From an uncultured SAR116 cluster alpha proteobacterium (GTDB lineage Bacteria; Pseudomonadota; Alphaproteobacteria; Puniceispirillales; Puniceispirillaceae): a DNA stretch of 64,000 nucleotides. The translations under genes and the position numbers were made by a program. The notes below the pieces were generated by a model that was not told the DNA's origin, ran no database searches, and saw only the letters and a program-made list of their open reading frames with translations. This document shows positions 2,971 through 24,289 of this stretch, piece by piece; the first letter of the stretch is position 1, and every line of letters starts with the position of its first letter. The stretch is from NCBI GenBank assembly GCA_902622515.1, contig CACNQE010000003.1, forward strand, positions 1-64,000, in the 5' to 3' direction.

Positions 2971-3036
2971 TTTTTCCTCTTAATCTAAGAAAATTAATTT
3001 AAAAATATTTTACACAATAGATAACGGCAGAAAATT

Positions 3037-3051
3037 GCAATTTTTATGCCT
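3037..3051 (-). promoter_or_regulatory. sigma-54 promoter of fliD
   Basis: On the minus strand the bases read AGGCATAAAAATTGC. The -24 GG and -12 GC are exactly 12 bases apart, which is the RpoN spacing. The -24 box (AGGCA) departs from TGGCA by one base. It points at the fliD start about 67 bases away. Confidence 0.75.
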
Positions 3052-3167
3052 AACTAGAAATAAGCTTATTTAAAATTATTTTCAAAATTTTACAATTTGC
3101 AACGAAAGTAATTAAGAGTATGCTTTTTCCTGAAATGGATACTAAACATTTTCTTTTTGATTGAGCC

Positions 3168-4910
3168 ATGTTAGTGAAGCCGGCAAACCATACAAATCGC
3201 TCTGTAGCGTTTTCCACTCTTCAAGCTATTTTCATAGTAATGATTACTGGTATTAGCTTTGGGATTTTGATGTCAATTGTTTCAAACGCTTTTGTCATTG
3301 GTGTCGACTGGCTTTTTAATACTAGACACTATTTTAATTTCCTAGATTTTTCTTTTTTTGGTAAACAACTCTCCCCAACGCCTTTAATAACACTTTTATG
3401 CGCAGTATTTGTAATATTATTTATTCGAAAAATCTTTTCTATTAGCAGATGGCATGGACCTGCAGACTCTATCTATGCTGCGCACCGAACAGATAATGAA
3501 TTAGACGTAAAAGCTGGATTTGGTTCAACCATTGCTGCTTTTATTTCAGCGGGAAGCGGTGCTTCAGTAGGACAGTATGGACCATTAGTGCACTTTGGAG
3601 CAACGGTAGGAAGCTACGTTAGAACATTAACTAATGGGAAAATTAGCACTGACGTATTTATTGGATGTGGTGTTGCAGGAGCTATTGCAGCTGGTTTTAA
3701 TGCCCCAATTGCTGGAACTATTTTTGCCTGTGAAACGATTTTAAGACACTTTTCTTTGCGTGCAGTAGCACCGGTAGCGATAACCAGCATCACTTCTGCA
3801 GGCATAAGCCAGATATTTTTTGGCAATGTGAATACCTTTTCGATGTCTGGAATTAATCCTGACCTAATGTTTTTGCTACCACTTGCTCTACTCACTGGTC
3901 CGATCTTTGGGATTTTATCAATAATTTATATGGTTACTCTCAGAAAAACTTCGGAAGTAGCAAGAGACTTAAAATGGTCACCTATGAAACTATTAATCAC
4001 CGCAGCACTGATTACTGGTATTACCGGTATGTTTTTACCAGAAATACTTGGGTTGGGAATTGAGCATATAGAAAGTATTCTTAATGATGGTTTCCATGTG
4101 CACTATTTGTTTTTCCTTCTAGTTGGCAAATTAATTATTACTGGTGTTTGTATTGGATTTGGAATGTTTGGAGGAATTTTTTCGCCCGCTTTGTTTATTG
4201 GTGCTGCTGGAGGAGCGTTATTTACAAAAGTAGCTACCCTGATAGGCGGTGCTACTGTCGCCACAGCTATTGGACCGGGATTAATAATATGCGGGATGGC
4301 GGCATTATCTAGTACAGTGGTGGGCACACCTATTGCTGGTGTCTTAATTATGTTAGAGCTAACAATGAGCTATGAATTAGCTCTAGCTGCAATGCTAAGT
4401 GTAGTAACAAGTTCGTTAGTAGCACATTTGTTATTCGGCCACTCATTTTTCGACAGACAGCTATTAGATAGAGGGATTGATATTTCACAAGGTCGAAGTC
4501 AAATTGAAATGATGGAATTGTCAGTGAAGCAATTAGCAACAAGCGATTATGTAAGCCTTTCACAGGATACTATTGCAGAAGATGCTATTAAAGCCATGAC
4601 CAAATCAGAGGCAAGTGAGGCCTATATTGTAACAAAAGAACAAAAATTTTTTGGTAAGGTTAGCCTGCATGGACTACTTAAAATCAAAAAAAATAATCCT
4701 GTAACAGACGCACTAATTCAAAAACCAATTATTATAAAGCATGATGCTTCTCTTCAACAAAGCATAGAGATAGCTAGTAAGTTTGTTGGGGAATCCATCC
4801 CAGTCGTAAATAAAGAAACTAAAGAAATGCTTGGTGTCGTAAGTGAAGCCGATCTTTTTCAAGCGTATCTTTTAACACAAAATAAAATCATAGATTTAGA
4901 AAAAAAGTAA
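3168..4910 (+). CDS. ClC-family chloride channel/transporter with C-terminal CBS pair
   Basis: This is an integral membrane ClC protein moving chloride or a related anion. Residues about 15-440 contain many hydrophobic helices, and about 450-575 form two CBS domains, which usually sense nucleotides. The third selectivity motif is intact (GIFSP, residues 336-340). The second, normally GREGP, reads GQYGP (135-139), so the external gating glutamate is replaced by tyrosine. The first, normally GSGIP, is degenerate (WHGPADS near residue 95). Loss of the gating glutamate is known to uncouple proton exchange in studied ClC proteins, so channel-like behaviour is a reasonable inference. It sits between fliD and fliS but has no obvious flagellar role. 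Confidence 0.9.
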   Translation: MLVKPANHTNRSVAFSTLQAIFIVMITGISFGILMSIVSNAFVIGVDWLFNTRHYFNFLDFSFFGKQLSPTPLITLLCAVFVILFIRKIFSISRWHGPADSIYAAHRTDNELDVKAGFGSTIAAFISAGSGASVGQYGPLVHFGATVGSYVRTLTNGKISTDVFIGCGVAGAIAAGFNAPIAGTIFACETILRHFSLRAVAPVAITSITSAGISQIFFGNVNTFSMSGINPDLMFLLPLALLTGPIFGILSIIYMVTLRKTSEVARDLKWSPMKLLITAALITGITGMFLPEILGLGIEHIESILNDGFHVHYLFFLLVGKLIITGVCIGFGMFGGIFSPALFIGAAGGALFTKVATLIGGATVATAIGPGLIICGMAALSSTVVGTPIAGVLIMLELTMSYELALAAMLSVVTSSLVAHLLFGHSFFDRQLLDRGIDISQGRSQIEMMELSVKQLATSDYVSLSQDTIAEDAIKAMTKSEASEAYIVTKEQKFFGKVSLHGLLKIKKNNPVTDALIQKPIIIKHDASLQQSIEIASKFVGESIPVVNKETKEMLGVVSEADLFQAYLLTQNKIIDLEKK

Positions 4911-4924
4911 AATCATTTAGTTGA

Positions 4925-4938
4925 AGCTTAATTAAGCT
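4925..4938. repeat. 14-bp perfect palindrome at convergent gene ends
   Basis: AGCTTAATTAAGCT is self-complementary and covers the stop of the 4932-5294 gene, facing the end of the ClC gene. There is no following T-run, so a terminator role is uncertain. Confidence 0.4.
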
Positions 4939-5294
4939 ATAATATCGATTTGATCTTTGAAACGCGGAGTATCTTCATGAATGTTTGAAGTTCTTGCTTC
5001 ACGAGTAGCAGCCATATTGTGATTATAAGCCGGAGAAAACGAAGAACGGGCCAGAAAAAACTCTTCTGCACTAATTGAAGATGGGGCCATTCTTGGATGC
5101 GATATCGTAACTTGTGGTCTGTTTTCCTCGTACCTGTGAGATTTTTTCACTTCATCTAAAGGCTCCACCCCATAAATAGTCTGTTGAAGAGTTGGCATAG
5201 TGTTTGCACGTACATGACCAAGCGGTTGTACCACTGCATCTGGTTTAATTTGAGCGGTTGGTCCAACTAATTGTGTAGATAAAGGATAAAACAT
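4932..5294 (-). CDS. hypothetical protein, 120 aa, in flagellar cluster
   Basis: I do not recognise this product. It is a soluble, proline- and histidine-containing protein with no membrane segment, starting MFYPLSTQLVGPTAQIKPDA. A TTG nine codons upstream would extend it, but the ATG is preferred; neither has a clear ribosome binding site. It is divergent from fliS, and a good sigma-54 promoter pointing at fliS lies inside this frame on the opposite strand. The gene is likely real because its composition resembles coding sequence, but the overlap with the promoter leaves some doubt. Confidence 0.5.
   Translation of the reverse strand: MFYPLSTQLVGPTAQIKPDAVVQPLGHVRANTMPTLQQTIYGVEPLDEVKKSHRYEENRPQVTISHPRMAPSSISAEEFFLARSSFSPAYNHNMAATREARTSNIHEDTPRFKDQIDIIA
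5193..5207 (+). promoter_or_regulatory. sigma-54 promoter of fliS-fliT
   Basis: The bases TGGCATAGTGTTTGC fit the TGGCAYR-N4-TTGC consensus, with GG (5194-5195) and GC (5206-5207) 12 bases apart. Transcription would start near 5219, leaving a leader of about 110 bases before fliS. The site lies inside the opposite-strand hypothetical gene. Confidence 0.75.
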
Positions 5295-5329
5295 AATAAA
5301 GTATAACTGATTTTTAAACAAAAATCAAA

Positions 5330-6042: not shown

Positions 6043-7146
6043 CTAATCTATTTCAATATCTATAGACAAATCAGATTTGGGCAATGGCTTTTCTATCATA
6101 AGCTTTTTCATCTTCTCTATCAAAGTGGTTCTGCGTAATTTTAGATTCGATGCTGCTTGGCTCACCATACCTTCTGTTTTTTCTAAAGCTGCTTCGATTA
6201 ACACTACCTCCACATCTCTCAAGTGTCTTCTAAGGTCAATAGTGTCAAAATAGTGGAACCATTGTTTATAATGAGATGGATGAGGAACTGGCTTTTCCAT
6301 CTCTGGCGGAAGTTGTAACTCTTCCTCTGTTGCTAAATCTGCCGTTGCATCCCATAATAGCTCCTGCTCATCTGCTCTGTCAGGAACTTTAAGTCTTAGT
6401 AAATTTTCCCGGACGTTTTTGCTATTAATCTTACTATCGGGAAAAAGGACACTTGCCCGTTCAATAACATTGCGCAATTCTCTGACATTTCCAGGCCAAG
6501 AATACTTAGACAGTTCCAGAAAACCTGTTTCATCAAAATTTGGCTTAGCTAAACTTTGAGTTTGTGCTGAGATGGCCTCAACAAGGTCTGGAATATCTAC
6601 AGCACGTGAAGCGAGCGGTGGCACTTGCACTGGAAACACATTGATACGATAAAACAAATCGGACCTAAACAAACCTTCATCAATTTTCGATTCAATATTT
6701 TGGTGTGTTGCACAAACAAGGCGAAAGTCTACTTTTATTTCGTCATTCCCTCCAACTCTCTGAATTGTCCTTTGCTCAAGTGCCCGTAATAACTTTGATT
6801 GTAAAGGCATCGGCATATCACCAATTTCGTCTAGGAATAATGTACCACCCTCTGCCTGTTCAAAGCGTCCTGCCCTTGTTTTTTCTGCACCAGTAAAAGA
6901 GCCTTTTTCATGACCAAATAACTCTGATTCCAATAGTTCAGAAGGTATGGCAGCGCAATTTACGGAAATAAGCTTTCCTTTTCTTTCAGATAATTCGTGG
7001 ATAGCTCTGGATATAACCTCTTTGCCTGTACCTGTCTCTCCTTGAACTAAAACAGCTGTTGGCGTTTTGGCGACCGCATAGATAAGTTTTTTTAGTTCTT
7101 CAATTACTGCAGACTTACCTACAATTATGTCGTCAATATTTCCCAT
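6043..7146 (-). CDS. fleQ: sigma-54-dependent flagellar activator, FleQ-like, without receiver domain
   Basis: The protein is a bacterial enhancer-binding protein. It begins almost directly with the AAA+ domain: Walker [10 protein letters not shown] near residue 37, the sigma-54 contact loop [13 protein letters not shown], Walker [14 protein letters not shown], and [15 protein letters not shown]. The C-terminus carries a Fis-type helix-turn-helix ([20 protein letters not shown]). No N-terminal receiver or GAF domain is present, so it is probably not controlled by phosphorylation. It is divergent from fleT across about 215 bases, and FleQ-box-like sites lie in that gap. No sigma-54 promoter is visible ahead of it, consistent with a top-level regulator of the flagellar hierarchy. 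Confidence 0.85.
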
Positions 7147-7169
7147 GAAAATGCCTAACCATTTTAAGT

Positions 7170-7226
7170 GTCATTATTTTGTTCACAAATTATAGAAAAA
7201 AGCAAGTCCTGTGTCAGAATTTTGAA
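7170..7226. promoter_or_regulatory. two degenerate FleQ-box-like sites between fleQ and fleT
   Basis: GTCATTATTTTGTT (7170-7183) and GTCAGAATTTTGAA (7213-7226) each keep one GTCA half-site and a partial TGAC half-site with the 6-base spacing of the Pseudomonas FleQ box. They lie 80-135 bases upstream of the fleT sigma-54 promoter, where an enhancer is expected. This is a weak, motif-only call. Confidence 0.35.
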
Positions 7227-7305
7227 CTACATTCAAGAAATGTTATGCTTATTTTTTATTTTATATTTCAACACACTAGGAGTTTTTTTTAGTAAATTTT
7301 CTTTT

Positions 7306-7320
7306 TGGCAAGCTTTTTGC
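7306..7320 (+). promoter_or_regulatory. sigma-54 promoter of the fleT-fliEFGHIJ operon
   Basis: TGGCAAGCTTTTTGC matches the consensus with GG (7307-7308) and GC (7319-7320) 12 bases apart. The predicted start near 7332 leaves about 30 bases, including GAAGGA, before the fleT ATG. Confidence 0.85.
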
Positions 7321-7361
7321 CTTTATCCTTTCGAACAATTTTTTACGTGAAGGAAAAATAA

Positions 7362-8543
7362 ATGAGCGATGTTCACCTTATTACAGAAATGTTCTCTTCT
7401 GTGGACCGCCTTTCAGAGATTTTGCAGGACCGTCAAATACCGTTTATTTGCAGTGATAATATAACAGCTGACGTTGATATATCATCTAGTAAATGCCAGA
7501 CTCTCATCATAAGCGATCAATACTATAAAAAAGTTGGTAATGATGCACTAATTTCATTCGCGAAAACTTTGAGAGCTAGCCACATATGTGCGGTAAGTGA
7601 AAACCAACCAGAATTTGGAATTACATCTGAACTCGGCGGTAAGATGATTTTCCTTCGCTTGCCTAACCAAAAAAGTGAAAATATTAGCGAAGATTATGGA
7701 TTGCAAATGCTTGCAACATTAGTATCCAACTCAGGCGTTGTTGCGGCAAGTGACGAAAGTAGTCAAAAATTATTCAAATTGGCAAAGCGAGTCGCTAATA
7801 CAGATGTAACTGTTTTTATAAACGGCCCAACTGGAACTGGCAAAGAAGTATTATCTAAGTTCATACACAATAATTCAAAACGAAATGAAGCGGGATTTGT
7901 TGCCGTAAATTGCGCAGCTATTCCAGAAAATATGCTAGAGGCTATCTTATTTGGCTACGAAAAAGGTTCGTTCACTGGAGCTTCTACTACCAATAAAGGT
8001 ATTTTTAGAGCTGCGGACAGTGGAACATTATTACTGGATGAAATCTCAGAGATGCCAATTTCCTTGCAGGCAAAATTATTGCGAGCCCTACAAGAAAAAT
8101 CTGTTACGCCAATTGGCTCTCAAACATCAATTCCCGTTGACGTCAGAGTCATAGCTACAACAAATAGGAATATGGTTGAAGAAATCAAAAATGGAAATTT
8201 CCGAGAAGATTTATATTACCGACTAAATGTTTTTCCTCTTTCCACATTAAGTCTGGCAGAGAGAACATCTGACATTATCGCTATTTCAACAGTGTTGATC
8301 AAAAAACACTGTAATGAAATTGAGAGTATACCATTTTTAGCAACATCTGCTCTCAACCTATTGGTAAATTATACCTGGCCAGGCAATGTTAGAGAGCTGG
8401 AAAATGTAATTCAGCGCGCATTGGTATTATCGGATGGAAAAACCATTAGTGCAGAGGATATCATTATCGATGACACTCTATATCAAGGAGGCGGTCAAGC
8501 ACACATTCAAAACATGATGGAAAAACAAGCTATAGCAGGATAA
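7362..8543 (+). CDS. fleT: sigma-54 activator lacking a DNA-binding domain, FleT-like
   Basis: This 393-residue protein has an N-terminal domain of about 130 residues that looks like a degenerate receiver. It is followed by a complete AAA+ sigma-54 interaction domain: Walker [25 protein letters not shown], Walker B GTLLLDEISEMP, and [15 protein letters not shown]. It stops about 30 residues after the AAA+ lid, and no Fis-type helix-turn-helix follows. This is not a frameshift artefact, because fliE starts 10 bases after the stop. In Rhodobacter sphaeroides the fla1 activator FleT has this architecture, sits ahead of fliE, and works with FleQ. Position and domain complementarity support the same arrangement here. 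Confidence 0.85.
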   Translation: MSDVHLITEMFSSVDRLSEILQDRQIPFICSDNITADVDISSSKCQTLIISDQYYKKVGNDALISFAKTLRASHICAVSENQPEFGITSELGGKMIFLRLPNQKSENISEDYGLQMLATLVSNSGVVAASDESSQKLFKLAKRVANTDVTVFINGPTGTGKEVLSKFIHNNSKRNEAGFVAVNCAAIPENMLEAILFGYEKGSFTGASTTNKGIFRAADSGTLLLDEISEMPISLQAKLLRALQEKSVTPIGSQTSIPVDVRVIATTNRNMVEEIKNGNFREDLYYRLNVFPLSTLSLAERTSDIIAISTVLIKKHCNEIESIPFLATSALNLLVNYTWPGNVRELENVIQRALVLSDGKTISAEDIIIDDTLYQGGGQAHIQNMMEKQAIAG

Positions 8544-8553
8544 GGGGTTTAAA

Positions 8554-8868
8554 ATGACGAGTATAAATTCATCAGTTGTAAAACTTGATAGCCTTCATGA
8601 GAAGGTACTAGAAAAAGCAGCAGAAACACTTGACACATCAGGCCAAAATGTTGAGTTTTCTGATAGAATGAAAAATGCTTTGACAGAAGTCGCAGATGCA
8701 CAAAAACAGGCAGCTGACAGCATGAAGGCCTTTGATCTTGGGCTTGAGACAGACTTGAGTAAAGTTATGGTTGACCAGCAAGTATCCTCCCTTGGATTTC
8801 AACTTACTCTGAACGTAAGAAATAAAATGTTGAGTGCCTACAAAGACATATTAAATATGCCAGTTTAA
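8554..8868 (+). CDS. fliE: flagellar hook-basal body protein FliE
   Basis: FliE joins the MS ring to the proximal rod. The 104-residue product has the conserved pattern: a central helical segment (FSDRMKNALTEVADAQKQA), an acidic stretch with DLGLETDLSKVMV, and a C-terminal helix (LGFQLTLNVRNKMLSAYKDI). The start is ATG 10 bases after fleT, preceded by a GGGG element at the fleT stop. It is the first structural gene of the fleT operon and is followed by fliF, the usual order. Confidence 0.93.
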   Translation: MTSINSSVVKLDSLHEKVLEKAAETLDTSGQNVEFSDRMKNALTEVADAQKQAADSMKAFDLGLETDLSKVMVDQQVSSLGFQLTLNVRNKMLSAYKDILNMPV

Positions 8869-8924
8869 AGCTACTGGATGAATTTTTAAAAAACAATAGG
8901 ATCTATTAAACTGGGAAAAGAAAA

Positions 8925-10637
8925 ATGGCTGAATCTACAACAATGGATAATATGAACTCAACCGCAGTAATAGAGCAGCGAAACGGTATTTTATCAAATG
9001 TGCGCAGACTAACATCTGATCCTAGTTTTAAAAAGTCCCTTCCATCAATTATTGCCGTGTCTGTTTTAGTATTAGGTCTTATAATTTATATGTTATTACA
9101 ACAACCAAGCTTAACACCGTTATATGCCTCACTACCTGAAGCTGAAAAAGCGCGGGTTGTAGAGGCGTTAAAAAATGCGGGATATGACGTAAGCATTGAT
9201 CCATCTACAGGAGATGTATTGGTTCCAACTGGTGATTATCACAAATCACGTATGACACTGGCAGCACAGGGACTTCCCGCATCCGTGCCCGATGGTTATT
9301 CGGCTATAGGTGATATACCTATAGGTTCTAGTAGGTCAGTTGAAAATATTAGATTGAAGCAAAGTCAAGAGATAGAGCTTGCACGCTCAGTTGGTGAAAT
9401 ACAAGGGGTGATTGCAGCTCGTGTTCATTTGGCAATTCCTGAAAAATCTGTTTTTGCGAGAACATCTATGGCGCCTACAGCATCAGTTTTTGTTCAAATG
9501 ACCGAAGGAAGGACATTAAGCAAACAACAAGTGAATGCAATTATTCACTTGGTTTCTTCTTCTGTTCCTAGCCTAGCAAAATCTGATGTAACAGTCGTAG
9601 ATCAATATGGTGGACTGCTATCAAACCCAAATGATGACCCAGCAAGCGCACTATCTGATGCACAATTAGAACATCGAATTAAAGTTGAGGCTATTTATCG
9701 TAGCAGAATAATATCCCTAGTCTCACCTCTTGTTGGAGCTGGCAATGTAACAGCTCAAGTGAATCTTGATATAGACTTTACAAAAAGTGAAATCACCGAA
9801 GAAAGAGTTGACCCAGAAGGAAATGCCCTTCGCAGTGAGCAAAAAAGCTTGGATCTAACCGCTGAAGAAACAGCCAGGGGTGTTCCTGGAGCAACAACTA
9901 ATAGAGCTCCTACCCAGGCAGAAATTGCTACTCAGCAAAATGCAGGAAACGAACCTGGTGAGTTCAAGACTCGTTCTTCTAACGAAGTTCGAAATTATGA
10001 AGTAAGCCGTAAAGTTGAGACAACATTACGACCGTCAAATAAGATCAATCGCATTCAAGCATCTGTTTTAGTGCGAGAAAAGGAGAATGTAAACCCAGAA
10101 ACAGGGCTTTTAGAAGCAGTCTCACTAACGCCAGAACAAATTGCAAACATCGAACAGTTGGTAACAAATGCAATCGGCATTGATAAAGAAAGAGGCGATC
10201 AGTTAACAGTTGAAAGTGCTGCTTTCGTCTCGGATATAGAGGGTATATCCAAGGCTTGGTACGAGATTGATTTCTTTACCAACCTTATTCAACAGGCAAT
10301 GACTGTTCTTGTAATGGGTGTTATTGTTCTTGGTGTTATTCGTCCGCTTATCAACCGTATCATGATACCGACAGCATCTGGAAAACCTGGAGAAGCAATG
10401 GTTGGGTTAGAAGATGATCCCGATTTAGATACCGTTGAAATCGAAGAAGGTGAGAGTCTTGAAGATATAAAAGCTAAGTTAAAGCCTAAAAAAGCAGCAA
10501 TCTCACCTGAGATGTTAGATACTGCAAACTCTTATGATGATAAGGTAGCTATTATTAGAATGATTGTTGGAGAAGAATCTGGACGAGTTGCTAATGTGTT
10601 TAAGTCTATGATGAATGTTGATAAAGAACCTTCATAA
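8925..10637 (+). CDS. fliF: flagellar MS-ring protein FliF
   Basis: FliF forms the MS ring in the inner membrane, the base on which the rotor and export apparatus assemble. The protein has an N-terminal membrane helix (about residues 40-60) and a YscJ/FliF ring-building domain with LTPLYASLPEAEKARVVEAL. Further conserved stretches are SRMTLAAQGLP and ARVHLAIPEKSVF, and a second membrane helix lies near 455-475. The acidic C-terminal tail, which binds FliG, is present. The 570-residue length is normal. It follows fliE by 56 bases. Confidence 0.97.
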   Translation: MAESTTMDNMNSTAVIEQRNGILSNVRRLTSDPSFKKSLPSIIAVSVLVLGLIIYMLLQQPSLTPLYASLPEAEKARVVEALKNAGYDVSIDPSTGDVLVPTGDYHKSRMTLAAQGLPASVPDGYSAIGDIPIGSSRSVENIRLKQSQEIELARSVGEIQGVIAARVHLAIPEKSVFARTSMAPTASVFVQMTEGRTLSKQQVNAIIHLVSSSVPSLAKSDVTVVDQYGGLLSNPNDDPASALSDAQLEHRIKVEAIYRSRIISLVSPLVGAGNVTAQVNLDIDFTKSEITEERVDPEGNALRSEQKSLDLTAEETARGVPGATTNRAPTQAEIATQQNAGNEPGEFKTRSSNEVRNYEVSRKVETTLRPSNKINRIQASVLVREKENVNPETGLLEAVSLTPEQIANIEQLVTNAIGIDKERGDQLTVESAAFVSDIEGISKAWYEIDFFTNLIQQAMTVLVMGVIVLGVIRPLINRIMIPTASGKPGEAMVGLEDDPDLDTVEIEEGESLEDIKAKLKPKKAAISPEMLDTANSYDDKVAIIRMIVGEESGRVANVFKSMMNVDKEPS

Positions 10638-10687
10638 TTGATAAACACGTAGCTTAGAAGATATTTTTGCTAGAATGTGAGAAAAAG

Positions 10688-11731
10688 ATGGCTGAGTCAG
10701 AAAATAAATCAGATGGAAATGAACAAACTGTATATGATTCATTGAACGGCATACAAAAGTCTGCAATCTTGATGATGCTTCTTGGGGAAGAAGAAGCATC
10801 AGAAATTATAAAGAATCTTGGTCCTAAAGAAGTACAAGCCCTTGGTGCTGCTATGTATTCAGTTCAAGGATTAGGCCAAGACACTGTAAATCAGGTGCTC
10901 GACGAGTTTTTATCTATTATAAAACAACAAACGAGCTTAGGCCTTGGAGCTGGCAATTATATTAAAAATGTTCTCAATAAAGCTATCGGGGAAGAGCGCG
11001 CTCAATCCGTTTTAAGCAGGATTGCACCATCTAACTCAGAACGACCCATAGAAATTTTAGATTGGATGGACGCTCCCTCAATAGCTGATTTAATTTCAGA
11101 TGAGCACCCTCAAATCATTGCTTTAATAATTTCTTATTTAGATGCTTCACTTGGTGCAGATGTTCTTAACCTCTTAGCTGAAGAAATGCAGGCTGATGTT
11201 ATAGCCAGAATTGCTAACCTTGATACAGTAGGGCCTGATGCACTAAATGAGCTTGAAGATGTAATGCAAAAGAAATTCAAAGCTAACACATCGCTCCGCG
11301 CTACGCAGGTTGGAGGTATAAAAGCAGCAGCAGCAATAATGAATTTTACTAATCAAGAGCAAGAAAGTAAAATTATGAAAGTCCTTGGCAAGGACGACAA
11401 ACATCTAGTTGTTGCTATTCAAGAAAGTATGTTTGTATTTGAGAATCTTCTTAAATCAGATGACAAATCTCTTCAAATGCTCCTTCGAAATGTAGAAACT
11501 GACGACCTGATCCTTGCTCTCAAAGGAGCAGACGAGATACTTAGAGAAAAACTATTTTCTTGCATGTCATCACGTGCGGCAGCAAATATAGTGGATGAGA
11601 TGGAAGCTCTCGGCCCCGTTCGCCTAAGTGAGGTGCAAGATGCTCAGAAACGAATAATTAACGTCGCGAGACGGATGTCGGATGAAGGCTCTATAGTATT
11701 AGCCGGCCGTGGCGGTGAGGACTACGTCTAA
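10688..11731 (+). CDS. fliG: flagellar motor switch protein FliG
   Basis: FliG is the rotor protein that contacts the stator and transmits switching. The N-terminal domain is recognisable (GIQKSAILMMLLGEEEASEI). The middle domain contains DEHPQIIALIISYL, close to the EHPQ motif. The C-terminal domain contains the charged torque helix (FENLLKSDDKSLQMLLRNVE). I chose the ATG at 10688, preceded by GTGAGAAAAAG, over an upstream in-frame TTG at 10667 because it has the better ribosome binding site and gives a normal length of 347 residues. Confidence 0.97.
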   Translation: MAESENKSDGNEQTVYDSLNGIQKSAILMMLLGEEEASEIIKNLGPKEVQALGAAMYSVQGLGQDTVNQVLDEFLSIIKQQTSLGLGAGNYIKNVLNKAIGEERAQSVLSRIAPSNSERPIEILDWMDAPSIADLISDEHPQIIALIISYLDASLGADVLNLLAEEMQADVIARIANLDTVGPDALNELEDVMQKKFKANTSLRATQVGGIKAAAAIMNFTNQEQESKIMKVLGKDDKHLVVAIQESMFVFENLLKSDDKSLQMLLRNVETDDLILALKGADEILREKLFSCMSSRAAANIVDEMEALGPVRLSEVQDAQKRIINVARRMSDEGSIVLAGRGGEDYV

Positions 11732-11772
11732 TTAAAGAAAGATAATGTTAAATATTTAATTGGAATACCAAA

Positions 11773-13080
11773 ATGGCAAGCGAACAAATTACCTACGCAG
11801 ATGAACAAGCTGAGCTACCCAATGCGTTGGAAGATTCCGAAATCGCGAGGATAATGAAACTTGTGAGTGGATCAGGTTATAAAAAATCTGAAAACGCACC
11901 CACTAGAATAAAACAGGAGTTTAAACCACGGTCTCTTGTTGAAATTGCTATGGAAGCGCAAAAAAAACTAGATAACGAAGACAAAAAATCAAAAAATGAG
12001 TCATTACAAACCAAAGGTGCAAAACAAACTATAGATACAGATACAGATAAAAATGGGGATGAGCCAGTCAAAGCTTTGTCTGCTGAAATTGAGGAAAAAG
12101 ATTCTGAACAAATAGAGTCTCCCTCTTCCCTTCCTGGTAATAATGACATTGAACTAGCTGATGAGCAAATTGGTCTTAACGCAGCTACTCCGGGTGACAA
12201 CGACACTACAATCTCATCAAAAAGTGCTGAAAGCAGTATAACTGAGCCAATTGCTGATTATAGTGAAGGTGCCCAAAGTGAAGAAAGTAGCATACCTGAC
12301 AATATTGAAACCCACACTTCCCAAAGCACTGATGAATTAACTGTTCAATATAACAAAGGTTATAAGGATGGTATAGAAGCTGGAAAAGATGAAAGGGAAA
12401 TAGAATTACAAGAAAAGTTTTCTTCACAATTAAGCATACTTGATGCACTTATATCAAATTTCGCGAAAAATAATTATGCCGATACAGAGCTATTAGAAAA
12501 AGATATTCGAACAACTATCTTATCACTGGCAAGTGAGCGCGCAGGATTCGCCATAAAAGAAATGCCTGAACATTTCCTTAAAAGAATAGACACGCTTATT
12601 TCTCGCGTTGGTACGAGCAGTAAAAATCCTATTATAAAGTTAAATAAGGCAGACTTGAATCATGTGGAAATGGTTAAAGAAAAATCGGAGGCCCTCTCGA
12701 AATTTACTTTTTCTGAGGACGAGACACTAAACCACGGCGACGTAGCTATATCCTTAGGTGGAATCGAAATAGAAGATATAATAGAGAAGCGTATTTCTCT
12801 TACACCTATAGAAACCAATGAGGGAAAAAATACTATTCCAGAAATAGTTACCAAACCAAAAGCGGAAATATCTAATTCTTCAGACACTTTAGTTGGTCAA
12901 AATGAACAAGACGATAAATTAAATGATACCGAGAATAAATCAACACAGCAAATTAAATCTGATGACAGGTCAGAAGTGGTTGAACATGAAGATGAAGTCA
13001 AGGGTAAGAAAAAGAATGAGAGTGAGAGTGACATAACTGCTGAAAATTCCTCTGAAAAAATCCAGGACAAATCATCATGA
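11773..13080 (+). CDS. fliH: flagellar assembly protein FliH (long acidic form)
   Basis: FliH regulates the export ATPase FliI and docks it to the export gate and C-ring. Its position between fliG and fliI, its coupled stop/start with fliI (ATGA) and a central region with YNKGYKDGIEAGKDERE support the call; the glycine-containing repeat there resembles the FliH GxxxG stretch. At 435 residues it is about twice the usual length. Residues about 85-175 and 365-435 are low-complexity, acidic and Ser/Glu/Asp-rich, probably disordered. Only the central 190-345 region looks like a folded FliH core. Confidence 0.8.
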   Translation: MASEQITYADEQAELPNALEDSEIARIMKLVSGSGYKKSENAPTRIKQEFKPRSLVEIAMEAQKKLDNEDKKSKNESLQTKGAKQTIDTDTDKNGDEPVKALSAEIEEKDSEQIESPSSLPGNNDIELADEQIGLNAATPGDNDTTISSKSAESSITEPIADYSEGAQSEESSIPDNIETHTSQSTDELTVQYNKGYKDGIEAGKDEREIELQEKFSSQLSILDALISNFAKNNYADTELLEKDIRTTILSLASERAGFAIKEMPEHFLKRIDTLISRVGTSSKNPIIKLNKADLNHVEMVKEKSEALSKFTFSEDETLNHGDVAISLGGIEIEDIIEKRISLTPIETNEGKNTIPEIVTKPKAEISNSSDTLVGQNEQDDKLNDTENKSTQQIKSDDRSEVVEHEDEVKGKKKNESESDITAENSSEKIQDKSS

Positions 13081-14399
13081 TATCTCTTCAGGAGAAACTT
13101 TCTAAAAGTATCCATTCATTAAATTTGGATCAGCCTATTTCTGTTTCCGGAAGAGTTAATCGATATGATGGACAAATGGTAGAGTGTGATGGTTTTCCAG
13201 CAACAATCGGATCTCTATGTGAAATTGATACAGAAACTAATGGAACTGCAATAGCAGAAATTATTGGATTTCATGGCGGACAAAATCTATTGAGCCTTCA
13301 TGATTTTGGTGCTCGAATAAGCGTTGGTGCAATAGTGCGCGTTATAAATGATGGGTATATGATACCAGTTGGCGAGGGTTTGTTAGGGCGCGTTACAGAT
13401 GCGCTTGGATCACCACTGGATGAAAAGCCCATTCCAACATTAAATGACAAATGGCCTTTGTTGGGAAAGGAATTAAACCCTCTTGCTAAAAATCCTGTGG
13501 ACACCCCTTTGGATGTTGGAGTACGTGCAATAAATAGTCTTCTTACTGTAGGTCGGGGTCAGCGTTTAGGTATTATCGCTGGTTCTGGTGTGGGCAAATC
13601 AATCTTGCTCGGAATGATGAGTAAATATACCGAAGCAGATATTGTAGTCGTTGGAATGATAGGTGAGCGTGGACGAGAAGTTGGAAGTTTTGTAAATACC
13701 ATTTTTTCAGAGGAGTCAAAAGAAAGAACAGCTATAGTAGCTGTACCAGCAGATAGGTCTCCTTTGCTGCGAATAAGAGGAGCTGAGAGAGCAACTGCAA
13801 TTGCAGAATATTTTCGTGATAAAGGGAAAAATGTCCTCTTAATTATGGACTCGCTTACAAGGGTTGCGCATGCTCGAAGAGAAATTGGACTTGCTCTTGG
13901 TGAACAACCAACTTCAAAAGGCTACCCACCCTCTGTTGTTTCCATGATACCTCGTTTGATAGAAAGAACAGGGAGTGGCGTCAAAAATCAAGGAACTATA
14001 ACAGCCATTTACACTGTTCTAGCTGATGGAGATGATTCTAATGACCCTGTTGTGGATACAGCGCGTGCTATTCTTGATGGCCATATACTGTTATCAAGGA
14101 AACAAACACAAATGGGAGTATACCCCGCTATTGATGTGCCTATGTCGGTTAGCCGCGTGATGAGCGAAATCACTGACGAAAATTTACAAAAAAGCGCTCA
14201 GAAATTCAGGAAGCTAGTATCATTATATATGGAGAACCGTGATTTGATTTTAATGGGTGGGTATACATCTGGGCAAGATCCAGAATTAGATGAAGCAGTG
14301 GCTCTTTGGCCAAAATTAATGGGACATATACAACAGGCTGAAACTGAAAGAGCTGATTTTACGGCAAGTAAAGAGGCCCTATTGAGCCTTATCAAATGA
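13077..14399 (+). CDS. fliI: flagellum-specific ATP synthase FliI
   Basis: FliI is the cytoplasmic ATPase of the flagellar type III export system. The F1-beta-like fold is clear: Walker A GIIAGSGVGKSILLG near residue 165, then the family sequence VVGMIGERGREVGSF, Walker B VLLIMDSLTRVAHARREIGL, and GEQPTSKGYPPSVVSMIPRL. The 440-residue length is normal. The ATG overlaps the fliH stop by four bases, so translation is probably coupled. No missing catalytic residue is seen. Confidence 0.98.
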   Translation: MISLQEKLSKSIHSLNLDQPISVSGRVNRYDGQMVECDGFPATIGSLCEIDTETNGTAIAEIIGFHGGQNLLSLHDFGARISVGAIVRVINDGYMIPVGEGLLGRVTDALGSPLDEKPIPTLNDKWPLLGKELNPLAKNPVDTPLDVGVRAINSLLTVGRGQRLGIIAGSGVGKSILLGMMSKYTEADIVVVGMIGERGREVGSFVNTIFSEESKERTAIVAVPADRSPLLRIRGAERATAIAEYFRDKGKNVLLIMDSLTRVAHARREIGLALGEQPTSKGYPPSVVSMIPRLIERTGSGVKNQGTITAIYTVLADGDDSNDPVVDTARAILDGHILLSRKQTQMGVYPAIDVPMSVSRVMSEITDENLQKSAQKFRKLVSLYMENRDLILMGGYTSGQDPELDEAVALWPKLMGHIQQAETERADFTASKEALLSLIK

Positions 14400-14433
14400 C
14401 AAACTCTTTTTGTAGATATGGTGTGAATTTCGG

Positions 14434-14859
14434 ATGAAAAAGAAATCAATATATGAGCGATTTACACTAAAACAACAGATTGGTATATCGAGGCAAGCAG
14501 AAGCAATGCGCATTCTTAACTCTGAACTCAAAAAATCACAAGAATTAGTTCAACAGTTGACCAAAATTGCCAATCAAACCGAAATAAAAATAGGGGAAAC
14601 AAACGCTATTTCCTTACGCTCCTCCTCTTGGTATGGAACAAGAGTGCAGGAACAGCTTGAAACATCAAAGAACCGAAATAAATTCTTACAAAAAGAAGTA
14701 GATGACTCAAAAAAAATGCTTGCCAAGGCAGTCCACAAAAAAAATAAATCAGAAGAGTCATGGCATCAATACGAAGCGAGTGAACGAGCGAATAAAGAAG
14801 AAAAGTTAGATCGAGAAGTCGCAGACCGTAAGAGACTGCCTAGAAAATTTGGTAGATAA
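14434..14859 (+). CDS. fliJ: flagellar export protein FliJ
   Basis: FliJ is a small coiled-coil protein that acts with FliH and FliI, resembling the central stalk of a rotary ATPase. The 141-residue product is highly charged and continuously helical, with heptad-like leucine spacing in the first half and a Lys/Glu-rich second half. Sequence conservation is low in this family, so the call rests on size, coiled-coil character and position right after fliI. It is the last gene before a new sigma-54 promoter. Confidence 0.85.
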   Translation: MKKKSIYERFTLKQQIGISRQAEAMRILNSELKKSQELVQQLTKIANQTEIKIGETNAISLRSSSWYGTRVQEQLETSKNRNKFLQKEVDDSKKMLAKAVHKKNKSEESWHQYEASERANKEEKLDREVADRKRLPRKFGR

Positions 14860-14902
14860 AACCCTTATATTAATAAATTAGTCTTTTAGGCTTTAAAAAA
14901 GT

Positions 14903-14917
14903 TGGCATTTTATTTGC
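14903..14917 (+). promoter_or_regulatory. sigma-54 promoter of fliKLMN
   Basis: TGGCATTTTATTTGC has the -24 GG (14904-14905) and -12 GC (14916-14917) at 12-base spacing. The predicted start near 14929 is about 28 bases ahead of the fliK ATG. Confidence 0.8.
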
Positions 14918-14956
14918 AACGCATTTGAAAATTTTAATTCATTGCGGATAAATAGT

Positions 14957-18423: not shown

Positions 18424-18450
18424 TGTCATAAGTATGTCAATATTATGACA
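18424..18450. repeat. inverted repeat containing a FleQ-box-like site
   Basis: TGTCATAA (18424-18431) and TTATGACA (18443-18450) form 8-base arms around 11 bases. Nested in it, GTCAATATTATGAC (18436-18449) fits the Pseudomonas FleQ box pattern GTCA-N6-TGAC. The site is about 100 bases upstream of the fliO sigma-54 promoter, a typical enhancer distance. Confidence 0.55.
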
Positions 18451-18544
18451 TAACAATTAGAATGTTAAAAAATATTCTTTATAAACATTATTTTGATCAA
18501 AAATTACAATATGTTACCAATTAATATCGTTTTAGAGAACATTA

Positions 18545-18559
18545 TGGCATGAGTTTTGC
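18545..18559 (+). promoter_or_regulatory. sigma-54 promoter of fliOPQR-flhB
   Basis: TGGCATGAGTTTTGC is a near-perfect -24/-12 element, with GG at 18546-18547 and GC at 18558-18559, 12 bases apart. The fliO ATG is 41 bases further on. Confidence 0.85.
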
Positions 18560-18600
18560 CTTTGTAAATCACTTTATTAGATTGAAGGATTTACACAGAT

Positions 18601-19071
18601 ATGGTTGCCATAAATCCATTTAGTTACGAACAAGTCACCATAATATTCATATTTCTATCAATTCTGTTAGGCATTCTTCTTTTTGTGCGTAAAAATAGGG
18701 GTCGATTTAGTATCACGTTACAAAATGAGAAAGCAATTTTTGTAATGGAAGATACTGCCATCAGTCCATCTGAACGTTTAAGATTGATAAAGGTAGGAGA
18801 TGAAATCTTTTTAATGGCTTCTAGCAAAGGGGTTTCTGCCCAGCTCGTAAAGCTTGATACAGAGAATAGTATTTCAAAGCAAACCAAATTAGATAATCAA
18901 CAAACCACAAATATCAATCAATCTCCGCTAAGTGAAAGCAAAGTTAAACAGCACGATAAGTTAGAGCTAACAGCAAAAAGTGCAAATGTCAGTCTGACCC
19001 AAACAAAATCAATATTCGATGCAATAAAGCAAGCTCGCACTAAAAACCCATTATTAGGATTAAATAAATGA
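18601..19071 (+). CDS. fliO: flagellar biosynthesis protein FliO
   Basis: FliO is a small membrane protein that helps assemble the FliP ring of the export gate. It has one N-terminal membrane helix (about residues 10-28). A compact basic/beta region typical of FliO follows (LQNEKAIFVMEDTAISPSER, then LIKVGDEIFLMASSKGVSAQ), and then a Ser/Lys/Gln-rich tail. The 156-residue length is slightly above usual. It overlaps fliP by four bases (ATGA). Confidence 0.85.
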   Translation: MVAINPFSYEQVTIIFIFLSILLGILLFVRKNRGRFSITLQNEKAIFVMEDTAISPSERLRLIKVGDEIFLMASSKGVSAQLVKLDTENSISKQTKLDNQQTTNINQSPLSESKVKQHDKLELTAKSANVSLTQTKSIFDAIKQARTKNPLLGLNK

Positions 19072-22416: not shown

Positions 22417-22643
22417 ATACCACTAAAAATAATGAAGTTAAATCTCAACTAAGTGCCCAACACGTAAATTGTTTTCGGTGTGAGTATTTATTCATAACGC
22501 ATGAAAAAAACAAACGGTATGGGTGCAAAAAATTTGGGTTTAAGGGACCTTATTTTCCCTCAATTACAGTATTTTCAACAACTGGCACGAAATGTGCTTA
22601 TTTCACATTGAAAAAGCGACTTAAAAATGGCAAGTCGTATTAA
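22413..22643 (+). CDS. small four-cysteine protein, possible zinc-binding
   Basis: The 76-residue protein has a CFRCEYLFIT start, then GCKKFGFKGPYFPS and a final cysteine (TKCAYF), giving C-x2-C...C...C. I recall short conserved proteins with this CxxC, GCxxFGFK and PS layout in several proteobacteria, some mis-annotated as uracil-DNA glycosylase. It is far too short to be an enzyme of that kind. Metal binding is inferred from the cysteine spacing. It is translationally coupled to the preceding small membrane protein gene. Confidence 0.7.
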   Translation: MNTTKNNEVKSQLSAQHVNCFRCEYLFITHEKNKRYGCKKFGFKGPYFPSITVFSTTGTKCAYFTLKKRLKNGKSY

Positions 22644-22663: not shown

Positions 22664-23401
22664 ATGAGCACGGATTATAATGCAGTTCAAGAAAGCATCA
22701 AAATTGCCCTTGATGCAGCTGATGCGGCTACAGATGTCACAGCCGAATATAATAAGATTAGACGAGACCATAAAAAGTTGGAGAATTCAATGAATCAATC
22801 TCAGCGATTTATTTCTATAATTTTTGCTAGTTCTGTTGCAGCAGCAATAGCTGCCCTGGTTTTTGCAGGATTAATCTATTTTAGAACCTTGGCTGAGCTT
22901 ACTACAATGACAACAACAAGCAGAGAGGCACTGATTGTTTTTGCTGAAAATGTTGATAATATGAACGGTTCATTGGAGAGGCTTGAAGCTTCTCTTGAAA
23001 CCCAAACCGAGCTTGTTTCCTTGAATAAAACTCTAATTAACGAGCTGGGCTCATTAAAACAAGTAATTGCTGACTCGAATATTTCTATGGCCTCAAAATT
23101 AGATTCTACAGCCAATGCCCTAACAACAAGTAACGGCTCTCTTGCAGAATCACTGACTAAAGCAATTGCAAATGAATTGAATAGTCAAAATCGGAAAATG
23201 TTAGGACAATTGCAGAAAATTGAGAACCTGACTATTGATTCTATGTCCCAATTATCTGCTCGCGTCGCTAGTGACCAAACGTTATCTAAAGTGGCAGGAA
23301 GCCAACAAGTATTAGCAAAGCGATTAGATGGTCTTGCAACTCAAAACCAAGAAATACTTAAACAAATGGAAACGCGTGACAACAAGATTAGTTTTCCTTG
23401 A
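22664..23401 (+). CDS. membrane-anchored coiled-coil protein, unknown
   Basis: I do not recognise a family. The 245-residue protein has a cytoplasmic N-terminal helix of about 45 residues and one membrane helix (about 48-70, SIIFASSVAAAIAALVFAGL). A long helical, heptad-like region follows to the end, rich in Leu, Ser, Asn, Gln and Glu. A strong GGGG ribosome site precedes the ATG. This layout resembles membrane-bound scaffold or chemotaxis-like signalling rods, but no receptor or HAMP signature is visible. It is the third of four co-directional unknown genes after flhB. Confidence 0.7.
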   Translation: MSTDYNAVQESIKIALDAADAATDVTAEYNKIRRDHKKLENSMNQSQRFISIIFASSVAAAIAALVFAGLIYFRTLAELTTMTTTSREALIVFAENVDNMNGSLERLEASLETQTELVSLNKTLINELGSLKQVIADSNISMASKLDSTANALTTSNGSLAESLTKAIANELNSQNRKMLGQLQKIENLTIDSMSQLSARVASDQTLSKVAGSQQVLAKRLDGLATQNQEILKQMETRDNKISFP

Positions 23402-23446
23402 TACAACCAACTGATTTGGTAATTCGGTGCAATTGGATCATTATCA

Positions 23447-24289
23447 ATGACATATGCAGAAGAAAACTTACAGGTACAAGAAACTGTAAATGAGAGTACT
23501 CTCTCTCCAAATGTTGAAGCAGATAGTAATAAGGATGTCGCCCAGCACTTCATTTGCATCAAAGAAGTTCGTCCTGTTTCTCGTGCAAAAGCGCTTCGAC
23601 TAAAAACTGGAGATGTAATCGTTGGTATAGAAGGCAAGACCTTTTTGGGTAGTGTCGAAGAGTTACTAGATATATTTGATGAAATCAACGAAGAAGAAGG
23701 CGCTTTATTAACCATTTGGAGAGCAGGCGTCAGTTTTAACCTAATTATCTTTGGGCCTCTTGGGTGTGTGTTTGAGTTTACCTCAGATGAGGTAACACAA
23801 GCTGTTCATTCAGCAATTCCTGATATAAAAATGGATGATATTAAAGAATATACAACATTTGAATTGCTTCGGAATATTGATGGTGAATGTAATATCTTTG
23901 ATACTAAGGTATCACAATTGGGTATTTACCTTCCTCCAGTTTGGCTTATCCAACAACGTCTATGGGAACCATTATTTGCTACAATGGCAGTTTATATAGT
24001 TACACTAATAGTTCACTGGGCATTATTTTTGATAGCCGGAGTGTTGTTGGCTATTTACTTTCGTCGTGCTCAATTAATCTTACTTCGTAGTTTTAGTTTA
24101 TATAAAGGAAAGATAATCTGGATGATTATTGCTGAAAAAACTATGCTAGATGCACAAAAAATTGCTCGTTCATTCGATCCAAATATAACCTTCAAACCAG
24201 ATCTTGTTGGTCCACCTGCACCTATTGCATTAGATCCTGGAAAGAAAAAGAAAAAGAAAAAACGAAAGTCATCTATTCCAAGTCAATAG
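23447..24289 (+). CDS. PDZ-like domain membrane protein, unknown
   Basis: Residues about 35-105 resemble a PDZ domain: RPVSRAKALRLKTGDVIVGI fits the carboxylate-binding and GD-x-I region seen in HtrA and RseP. No protease domain accompanies it. One or two membrane helices lie at about 178-210, followed by a basic cytoplasmic tail ending in a run of lysines. There is no signal peptide, so the PDZ part may face the cytoplasm if the single-pass topology is right. The gene closes the post-flhB module, upstream of the convergent tRNA gene. The PDZ call is moderate; the function is unknown. Confidence 0.65.
   Translation: MTYAEENLQVQETVNESTLSPNVEADSNKDVAQHFICIKEVRPVSRAKALRLKTGDVIVGIEGKTFLGSVEELLDIFDEINEEEGALLTIWRAGVSFNLIIFGPLGCVFEFTSDEVTQAVHSAIPDIKMDDIKEYTTFELLRNIDGECNIFDTKVSQLGIYLPPVWLIQQRLWEPLFATMAVYIVTLIVHWALFLIAGVLLAIYFRRAQLILLRSFSLYKGKIIWMIIAEKTMLDAQKIARSFDPNITFKPDLVGPPAPIALDPGKKKKKKKRKSSIPSQ

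Follow-up and report, generated by a model that had tools for sequence, protein, structure and literature searches.

In Cereibacter sphaeroides (Rhodobacter sphaeroides), FleQ acts with sigma-54-2 to switch on an operon containing fleT and fliEFGHIJ (PMC7277832, PMC11999139). FleT in this species is reported to have no DNA-binding domain, to be inactive alone and to need FleQ for its expression, and the two proteins form hetero-oligomers that serve class III promoters (PMC11999139, PMC7277832); that FleT, or both proteins, have no regulatory domain is stated in PMC3162934 and PMC9542535. The flagellum concerned, fla1, is termed fla3-type in PMC12363192. Two related activators are also described as acting jointly in HrpR/HrpS and VnfA1/VnfA3 (PMC9542535), which are not flagellar, and FleQ/FleT is one of the few known hetero-oligomeric sigma-54 activators. 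Here, we describe a divergent pair of fleQ-like and fleT-like genes next to a flagellar operon in an uncultured SAR116 cluster alphaproteobacterium of the order Puniceispirillales. The window analysed is the 64,000-nucleotide stretch at positions 1 to 64,000 of contig CACNQE010000003.1 (assembly GCA_902622515.1).

The published FleQ/FleT work that we found concerns C. sphaeroides only, where the pair works alongside additional sigma-54 factors and another flagellar system. Among the literature titles listed, with subscription papers mostly outside the scope, we found no FleQ/FleT study on another bacterial order and no work on flagellar regulation of this kind in SAR116 or Puniceispirillum. 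In the present case, the pair serves a genome in which one rpoN was found, compared to four reported in C. sphaeroides (PMC7277832), and one FliI of its type, found at one place, and there are dozens of related genomes for comparison. It is a known system with new holders, and its presence across the order bears on the origin of the Rhodobacter flagellum.

Domain architecture of the two activators

The two genes are separated by a gap of 215 bp (Table 1). In the FleQ-like protein, the activator domain PF00158 covers residues 8-173 (235 bits) and is followed by a lid, a linker and a Fis-type helix-turn-helix (HTH). Family profile searches found no domain ahead of the AAA+ domain of this protein, and the open frame upstream of its start extends just 8 codons (375 versus 367 amino acids). 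In the FleT-like protein, about 120 residues precede the activator domain, the lid family reaches residue 367, and the protein ends 23 residues past the stretch used for AAA+ searches, with no HTH family found by profile search up to E = 1. When activator tails were scored with a home-made HTH profile, which is rough and was built from 25 tails, the FleT-type tails of 15-28 amino acids reached at most 4.3 bits, and the FleQ-type tails of the order, families f11 and f20, Octadecabacter and Cereibacter, where not cut by the locus end, scored 33-47 bits. Since the FleT-type proteins share one end point throughout the order, no local frameshift removed the HTH of FleT, and fliE starts at 8554, 10 bases past the fleT stop at 8543. 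These results agree with an earlier note, made from the letters of the window, which had described a fleQ-like product that begins at the AAA+ domain and ends with a Fis-type HTH, a divergent AAA+ product without an HTH that had lost no domain to a frameshift, a fliE gene 10 bases downstream, and GSFTGA loops in both proteins. The note had named a C-terminal HTH in the 7362-8543 product as a refuting result; it was looked for by profiles and was not detected.

Both window proteins retain Walker A, Walker B, GSFTGA, the arginine-finger stretch and WPGNVRE, so each is expected to be a functional ATPase with a loop for contact with sigma-54. Because a regular-expression search missed the arginine-finger stretch in 10 of 31 FleQ proteins of the order and the loop in 1 of 31, these motif claims are restricted to the window proteins.

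One claim of the earlier note, that FleT carries a degenerate receiver, was not confirmed. The N-terminal ~120 residues are conserved among FleT proteins, with an ELGG motif as the clearest feature. A profile of this region from 30 sequences (two FleT rows of genome G009 omitted) was compared by hhalign with the N-terminal profiles of FleR, NtrC and FlbD, and the probabilities were 0.0-0.3; as a positive control, the FleR, NtrC and FlbD profiles matched each other at 94.9-99.5. In the alignment, judged by eye, the acceptor aspartate, the acidic pair and the lysine were not conserved in the FleT N-terminus. An AlphaFold2 model of FleT from a single sequence had a mean predicted local distance difference test score (pLDDT) of 40.4, too poor to judge the fold, and a receiver fold lacking a sequence signal may be present. 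A FleT homologue that we call the sphingomonad type, a label for family f14 based on its grouping with Qipengyuania, also precedes fliE (L070 7872-9038; f14 loci L078-L081 and L085); it keeps the HTH, has a short N-terminus unlike receivers, and is a possible intermediate state.

Orthology with the Cereibacter pair and proposed mechanism

Genomes of Cereibacter johrii, C. azotoformans and C. ovatus were located with PufX as bait. Identity to window FleQ over its length was 52% for C. ovatus and 53% for C. johrii, and 57% over the first part for C. azotoformans, in which the gene is cut by the region examined. Despite the published statements that FleT has no regulatory domain, the C. ovatus FleT aligns with window FleT from residue 1, with 49% identity over window residues 1-370; the C. 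johrii gene is truncated at a contig end. The end of Cereibacter FleT comes 15 residues past the same AAA+ point, and the genes downstream of fleT in C. ovatus and C. azotoformans are fliE, F, G, H, I, K, L, M, N, P, Q, R and flhB. The two systems have in common the two domain plans, a FleT without an HTH, fleT at the head of fliE-F-G-H-I and a sigma-54 site before fleT. They differ in that Cereibacter fleQ lies ~20 kb from fleT, beside fliD, whereas the genes are adjacent and divergent in the window. The whole-protein similarity, the fleT-fliE-F-G-H-I operon and the trees given below support the orthology of the window pair with Cereibacter FleQ/FleT, in line with the comparison to R. sphaeroides fla1 drawn in the earlier note.

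At the level of sequence, the locus is defined by a division of domains between two proteins, by this orthology, by a promoter and by a conserved box, and it is probably the two-activator FleQ/FleT switch within the flagellar hierarchy. A GTCA-N6-TGAC dyad ahead of a sigma-54 promoter would be bound by FleQ, which would switch on fleT-fliEFGHIJ. By analogy with C. sphaeroides, newly made FleT would then join FleQ in hetero-oligomers in which FleQ supplies the DNA binding, and the mixed FleQ/FleT ring would open the later (class III) sigma-54 promoters. We propose that expression of the first operon would in this way license the next stage.

Candidate sigma-54 promoters and a candidate FleQ box

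Upstream signals were counted in 31 regions of the order, four of f11, two of f20 and six of the sphingomonad type. A strict sigma-54 pattern was found before fleT in 25 of the 31 order regions (0.5 expected), in all four f11 regions and in neither f20 region, and it is present in Octadecabacter, C. ovatus and genome G153. The 6 order regions and 2 f20 regions missing the strict pattern carry a looser GG-N10-GC site. Among the sphingomonad-type regions, one of six had the strict pattern (0.46 expected). Since the site is near-palindromic, the strict pattern also occurs on the reverse strand in 16 of the 31 order regions. With a loose score, 147 sigma-54 sites were counted in the window compared to 73 in shuffles, and thus only well-placed sites are named as candidates in Table 1.

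The dyad TGTCA-N6-TGACA (up to 2 mismatches) was present upstream of fleT in all 31 order regions (4.9 expected), compared to 3-10 of 31 for other spacers; as an example, a spacer of 4 was at the chance level (4 of 31 versus 4.8 expected). The dyad was also found in both f20 regions, in the four f11 regions and in Octadecabacter, and in one of six sphingomonad-type regions (0.41 expected). The consensus given for P. aeruginosa FleQ, GTCaNTAAAtTGAC (PMC6120874), has the same half-sites and the same spacing as the dyad of the order, and the HTH of window FleQ retains the arginine pair that has been proposed to read the box ends (PMC10723142). At 20 loci, pairs of box and promoter with up to 1 mismatch were enriched at spacer 6 (12 versus 0-3), and those with up to 2 mismatches were not (30 versus 13-33). 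The 12 pairs comprise six fleT sites, one fleQ-fleT gap in reverse (L073) and five other places. In the window, a perfect candidate box lies 93 bp ahead of the 18544 sigma-54 site, and pairs with up to 1 mismatch are likewise present in genomes G015 and G025. The Octadecabacter plasmid has a perfect box immediately ahead of the annotated start of rpoN, with a sigma-54 match 54 bp inside that start.

Several results weigh against the dyad as a FleQ box. It is absent before fleT of G153 and of C. ovatus; in lacking the box C. ovatus, which retains the sigma-54 site, differs from the window. Counted in the window by itself, the box shows no enrichment, with 4 sites (up to 1 mismatch) at spacer 6 compared to 0-4 elsewhere. 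The box was first noticed by eye in the same upstream regions (f4, f11), before the spacer scan, so the spacing and the motif were chosen after part of the data was known, and the related genomes are not independent. In addition, a chromatin immunoprecipitation sequencing study reports no general FleQ consensus and describes the P. aeruginosa motif as unreliable in its strain (PMC6120874). That FleQ binds the candidate box is our inference.

Distribution of the pair

The order sample comprised 61 genomes (the genome of the window and 60 relatives), in which FleT was counted at E below 1e-100 and FliI at E up to 1e-50; the class-level and phylum-level samples comprised 386 and 397 genomes. FleT was found in 40 of the 61 genomes, and a divergent FleQ-type match stood alongside in 35 of these 40; the remaining five FleT loci (L015, L016, L022, L024 and L036) end within ~400 bp on the FleQ side or inside FleT. 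FliI was found in 43 genomes. FleT and FliI were both present in 37 genomes, FleT only in 3, FliI only in 6 and neither in 15, and the association was significant by a Fisher test that is uncorrected for kinship (p 4e-7). As another comparison, FliX was found in 0 of the 61 genomes, with a positive Caulobacter control.

Beyond the order, the pair was found in four f11 genomes and two f20 genomes of the class sample. The Octadecabacter plasmid pOA238_118 also bears the pair, with rpoN within the cluster. In G153 (family f97), FleT precedes fliE and a FleQ-type gene (372 amino acids, 37% identity) is unlinked, on another contig beside a ClC channel gene. In the phylum sample, 75 of 397 genomes gave matches at E below 1e-78; 63 of them lie outside the class, and the matches there are frames of 445-742 amino acids, nearly all of which align over the AAA+ part only. 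Judged from these sequences, FleQ/FleT is inherited within the order, and its cluster differs in type from that of classical alphaproteobacteria. The earlier note had left it at inherited or transferred, and the order-wide pairing and FliI answer this in part, in favor of inheritance within the order.

Some genomes hold more than one copy. Genome G009 (L151-L154, L167, L174, L175; 7% contamination) has FliI in three copies and additional, divergent genes for FleQ and FleT, and may thus be a mixed bin. G026 (contigs C125 and C188) and G030 (C28 and C29) each have two FleQ/FleT pairs, by duplication, a second cluster or a mixed bin.

Ancestry of FleQ and FleT

Trees of the AAA+ domain were built from 73 rows and from 44 rows, the latter with FleQ as the outgroup; it omits the long-branch rows L071, L082, L088, L089, L094, L102 and L106, the extra G009 rows, L101 and near-duplicates, and includes added gamma rows. 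In the 73-row tree, window-type and Cereibacter FleQ form a group (97/93), which gammaproteobacterial FleQ joins at a deeper node (86/82); a long-branch Cereibacter activator, L106, falls between the window-type and gamma FleQ, and its placement is unsure. FleT groups with Octadecabacter (96/70), Cereibacter FleT (94/49) and the HTH-bearing sphingomonad-type homologues (100/99), next with P. aeruginosa FleR and Aeromonas FlrC-type rows (99/91), and FlbD-type rows are separate (99/90). In the 44-row tree, FleT proteins without an HTH, including those of Cereibacter, form one clade (99/89). An approximately unbiased (AU) test rejected a grouping of Cereibacter with gamma rows (p 0.0003). The phylogeny was searched for both proteins inside the FlbD clade, the other result that the earlier note had said would refute it, and this was not seen, since the FlbD-type rows form a separate clade.

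The gene order in the window is fliD, a ClC gene, fliS, a 98-amino acid open reading frame (ORF), fleQ, fleT and fliEFGHIJ, and in P. aeruginosa it is fliD-fliS-fleP-fleQ-fleS-fleR-fliEFGHIJ, so that window fleT occupies the fleR position of Pseudomonas. The likeness to Pseudomonas FleQ with FleS/FleR and to Vibrio FlrA with FlrB/FlrC extends to the AAA+ domain and HTH of FleQ and the AAA+ domain of FleT. In contrast to both, the window has no fleS, no receiver match or HTH in FleT and no N-terminal domain in FleQ; no kinase gene was found beside the activators at the locus, where no ORF lies between fleQ and fleT and the neighbours are named. Of the c-di-GMP contact residues R138, R144, R185, E330 and R334 described in PMC10723142, only R185 is kept in window FleQ, and from these residues window FleQ is predicted to be freed from c-di-GMP control. 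Taken together, the rooted tree and the gene order suggest that FleT belongs to the FleR/FlrC-type activators and that its HTH disappeared after the split from the HTH-keeping sphingomonad-type homologue.

FleT could instead be an FlbD homologue minus its HTH, and the pair a remodelled alphaproteobacterial FlbD/FliX circuit to which FleQ was added. FlbD is likewise a flagellar sigma-54 activator with AAA+ similarity, and two results weigh against a FleR-type origin: the best NCBIfam model for the AAA+ part of FleT is FlbD (296 bits, with the cut-off of 750 unreached), and the AU test did not reject a grouping of FleT, the sphingomonad type and FlbD (p 0.138). The HTH can also be lost on the FlbD side of the tree, where L088 5958-7073 (genome G217, family f53) has no HTH by the home-made profile, possibly a second, independent loss; all other FlbD-type rows tested keep it. 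We nevertheless consider an FlbD origin unlikely, because FleT, the sphingomonad type and gamma FleR group together (95/92) with FlbD apart (100/98) when FleQ is the outgroup, FleT with FlbD alone is rejected (AU p 0.010), and the best PDB match of FleT is FlrC. The order genomes have no FliX, as given above, and the gene order resembles P. aeruginosa fleQ-fleS-fleR-fliEFGHIJ rather than Azospirillum fliF-fliH-fliN-motA-FlbD type-flhA. A different objection concerns the mechanism: FleT might act without FleQ, activating sigma-54 RNA polymerase from solution, with FleQ controlling only FleT expression. Window FleT keeps the full set of motifs listed above, from Walker A to WPGNVRE, and activators without a DNA-binding domain are described in Helicobacter (FlgR) and Chlamydia (CtcC) (PMC3162934). 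However, the C. sphaeroides orthologue is reported to be inactive alone (PMC11999139), and FleT occurs together with FleQ in the order, f11, f20, Octadecabacter and Cereibacter, with both present in G153, so that we regard FleT acting alone as unlikely.

The FliI tree, which is unrooted, has three blocks. One (100/99) holds the window, the order, f11, f20, Octadecabacter, G153, the extra G009 copies and Cereibacter fla1, and the sphingomonad type joins it (100/100); the classical alphaproteobacterial sequences with Cereibacter fla2 form another (100/98), and the gamma sequences the third (81/93). Window FliI has a raw identity of 45-49% to gamma and 37-42% to classical alphaproteobacterial sequences, and the nearness of window-type FliI to gamma comes from this identity and a midpoint root, not from an outgroup. 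According to a review, fla1 goes back to an ancestral gammaproteobacterium (PMC7277832), and a 2025 paper describes recruitment of the fla3-type from other alphaproteobacterial orders (PMC12363192). Our trees fit a gamma-like depth with alphaproteobacterial nearest relatives.

Returning to the FleR-type reading, we see an even chance that FleQ/FleT is the native flagellar switch of this order and its neighbours, that the immediate source of the fla1 'foster' flagellum of R. sphaeroides was an alphaproteobacterial relative of this lineage rather than a gammaproteobacterium, and that FleT arose there from a FleR-type response regulator that lost its HTH and had its receiver replaced by an unrelated domain at the N-terminus. 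With both losses, a phosphorelay checkpoint would have become an activator-assembly checkpoint. Since Cereibacter branches next to the order rather than within it, both could equally have drawn on a common donor outside the sample. The locus offers a FleQ box that can be tested, a suggested order of losses (kinase, receiver, HTH) and relatives of the fla1 flagellum among the alphaproteobacteria.

Other features of the locus and genome

Table 1. Features of the fleQ-fleT locus and of the flagellar genes around it, in window coordinates.
Feature	Position	Strand	Remarks
fleQ-like gene, 367 aa	6043..7146	-	best PDB match P. aeruginosa FleQ, 294 bits
HTH_8 of FleQ-like protein, residues 309-349	6100..6222	-	43.7 bits; contains RR-TTL-EKM-K stretch, also in P. 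aeruginosa FleQ
fleT-like gene, 393 aa	7362..8543	+	best PDB match V. cholerae FlrC, 289 bits
FleT N-terminal region, residues 1-122	7362..7727	+	
FleT AAA+ sigma-54 activator domain, residues 129-293	7746..8240	+	PF00158, 228 bits
Candidate FleQ box TGTCAGAATTTTGAAC	7212..7227	.	2 mismatches to TGTCA-N6-TGACA; 77 bp before sigma-54 site; position conserved in the order
Candidate sigma-54 promoter TTGGCAAGCTTTTTGCC	7305..7321	+	41 bp before fleT start
fliE, fliF, fliG, fliH, fliI, fliJ	8554..14859	+	fliE by Pfam; rest by similarity and position
Two overlapping candidate FleQ boxes TGTCATAAGTATGTCA, TGTCAATATTATGACA	18424..18450	.	1 and 0 mismatches
Candidate sigma-54 promoter ATGGCATGAGTTTTGCC	18544..18560	+	before ORF at 18601 (fliO by position), fliP, fliQ, fliR, flhB
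Candidate sigma-54 promoter	14902..14918	+	24 bp before fliK; no FleQ box found
Candidate sigma-54 promoter	3036..3052	-	before fliD
Candidate sigma-54 promoter	5192..5208	+	122 bp before fliS

Activator domains were found at seven places in the genome of the window: fleQ, fleT, two frames on contig C1 and, with weak matches, three other proteins. The two C1 frames, of 460 amino acids (169 bits) and 473 amino acids (54 bits), are 3.6 kb apart and look like ntrX/ntrC by position.

The ClC-type chloride channel gene between fliD and fliS in the window lies at 3168-4910 (+). A ClC-type gene also adjoins fliD on the Octadecabacter plasmid (L069 11077-12819) and the FleQ-type gene in G153 (L248 6208-7872). 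A 129-amino acid ORF at 4932-5321 (-) has no family match, overlaps the candidate fliS sigma-54 site and is possibly not a true gene. Where the flagellar block ends, a sigma-54-like site at 22582-22598 lies ahead of two unassigned ORFs of 245 and 280 amino acids (22664-24289, +).

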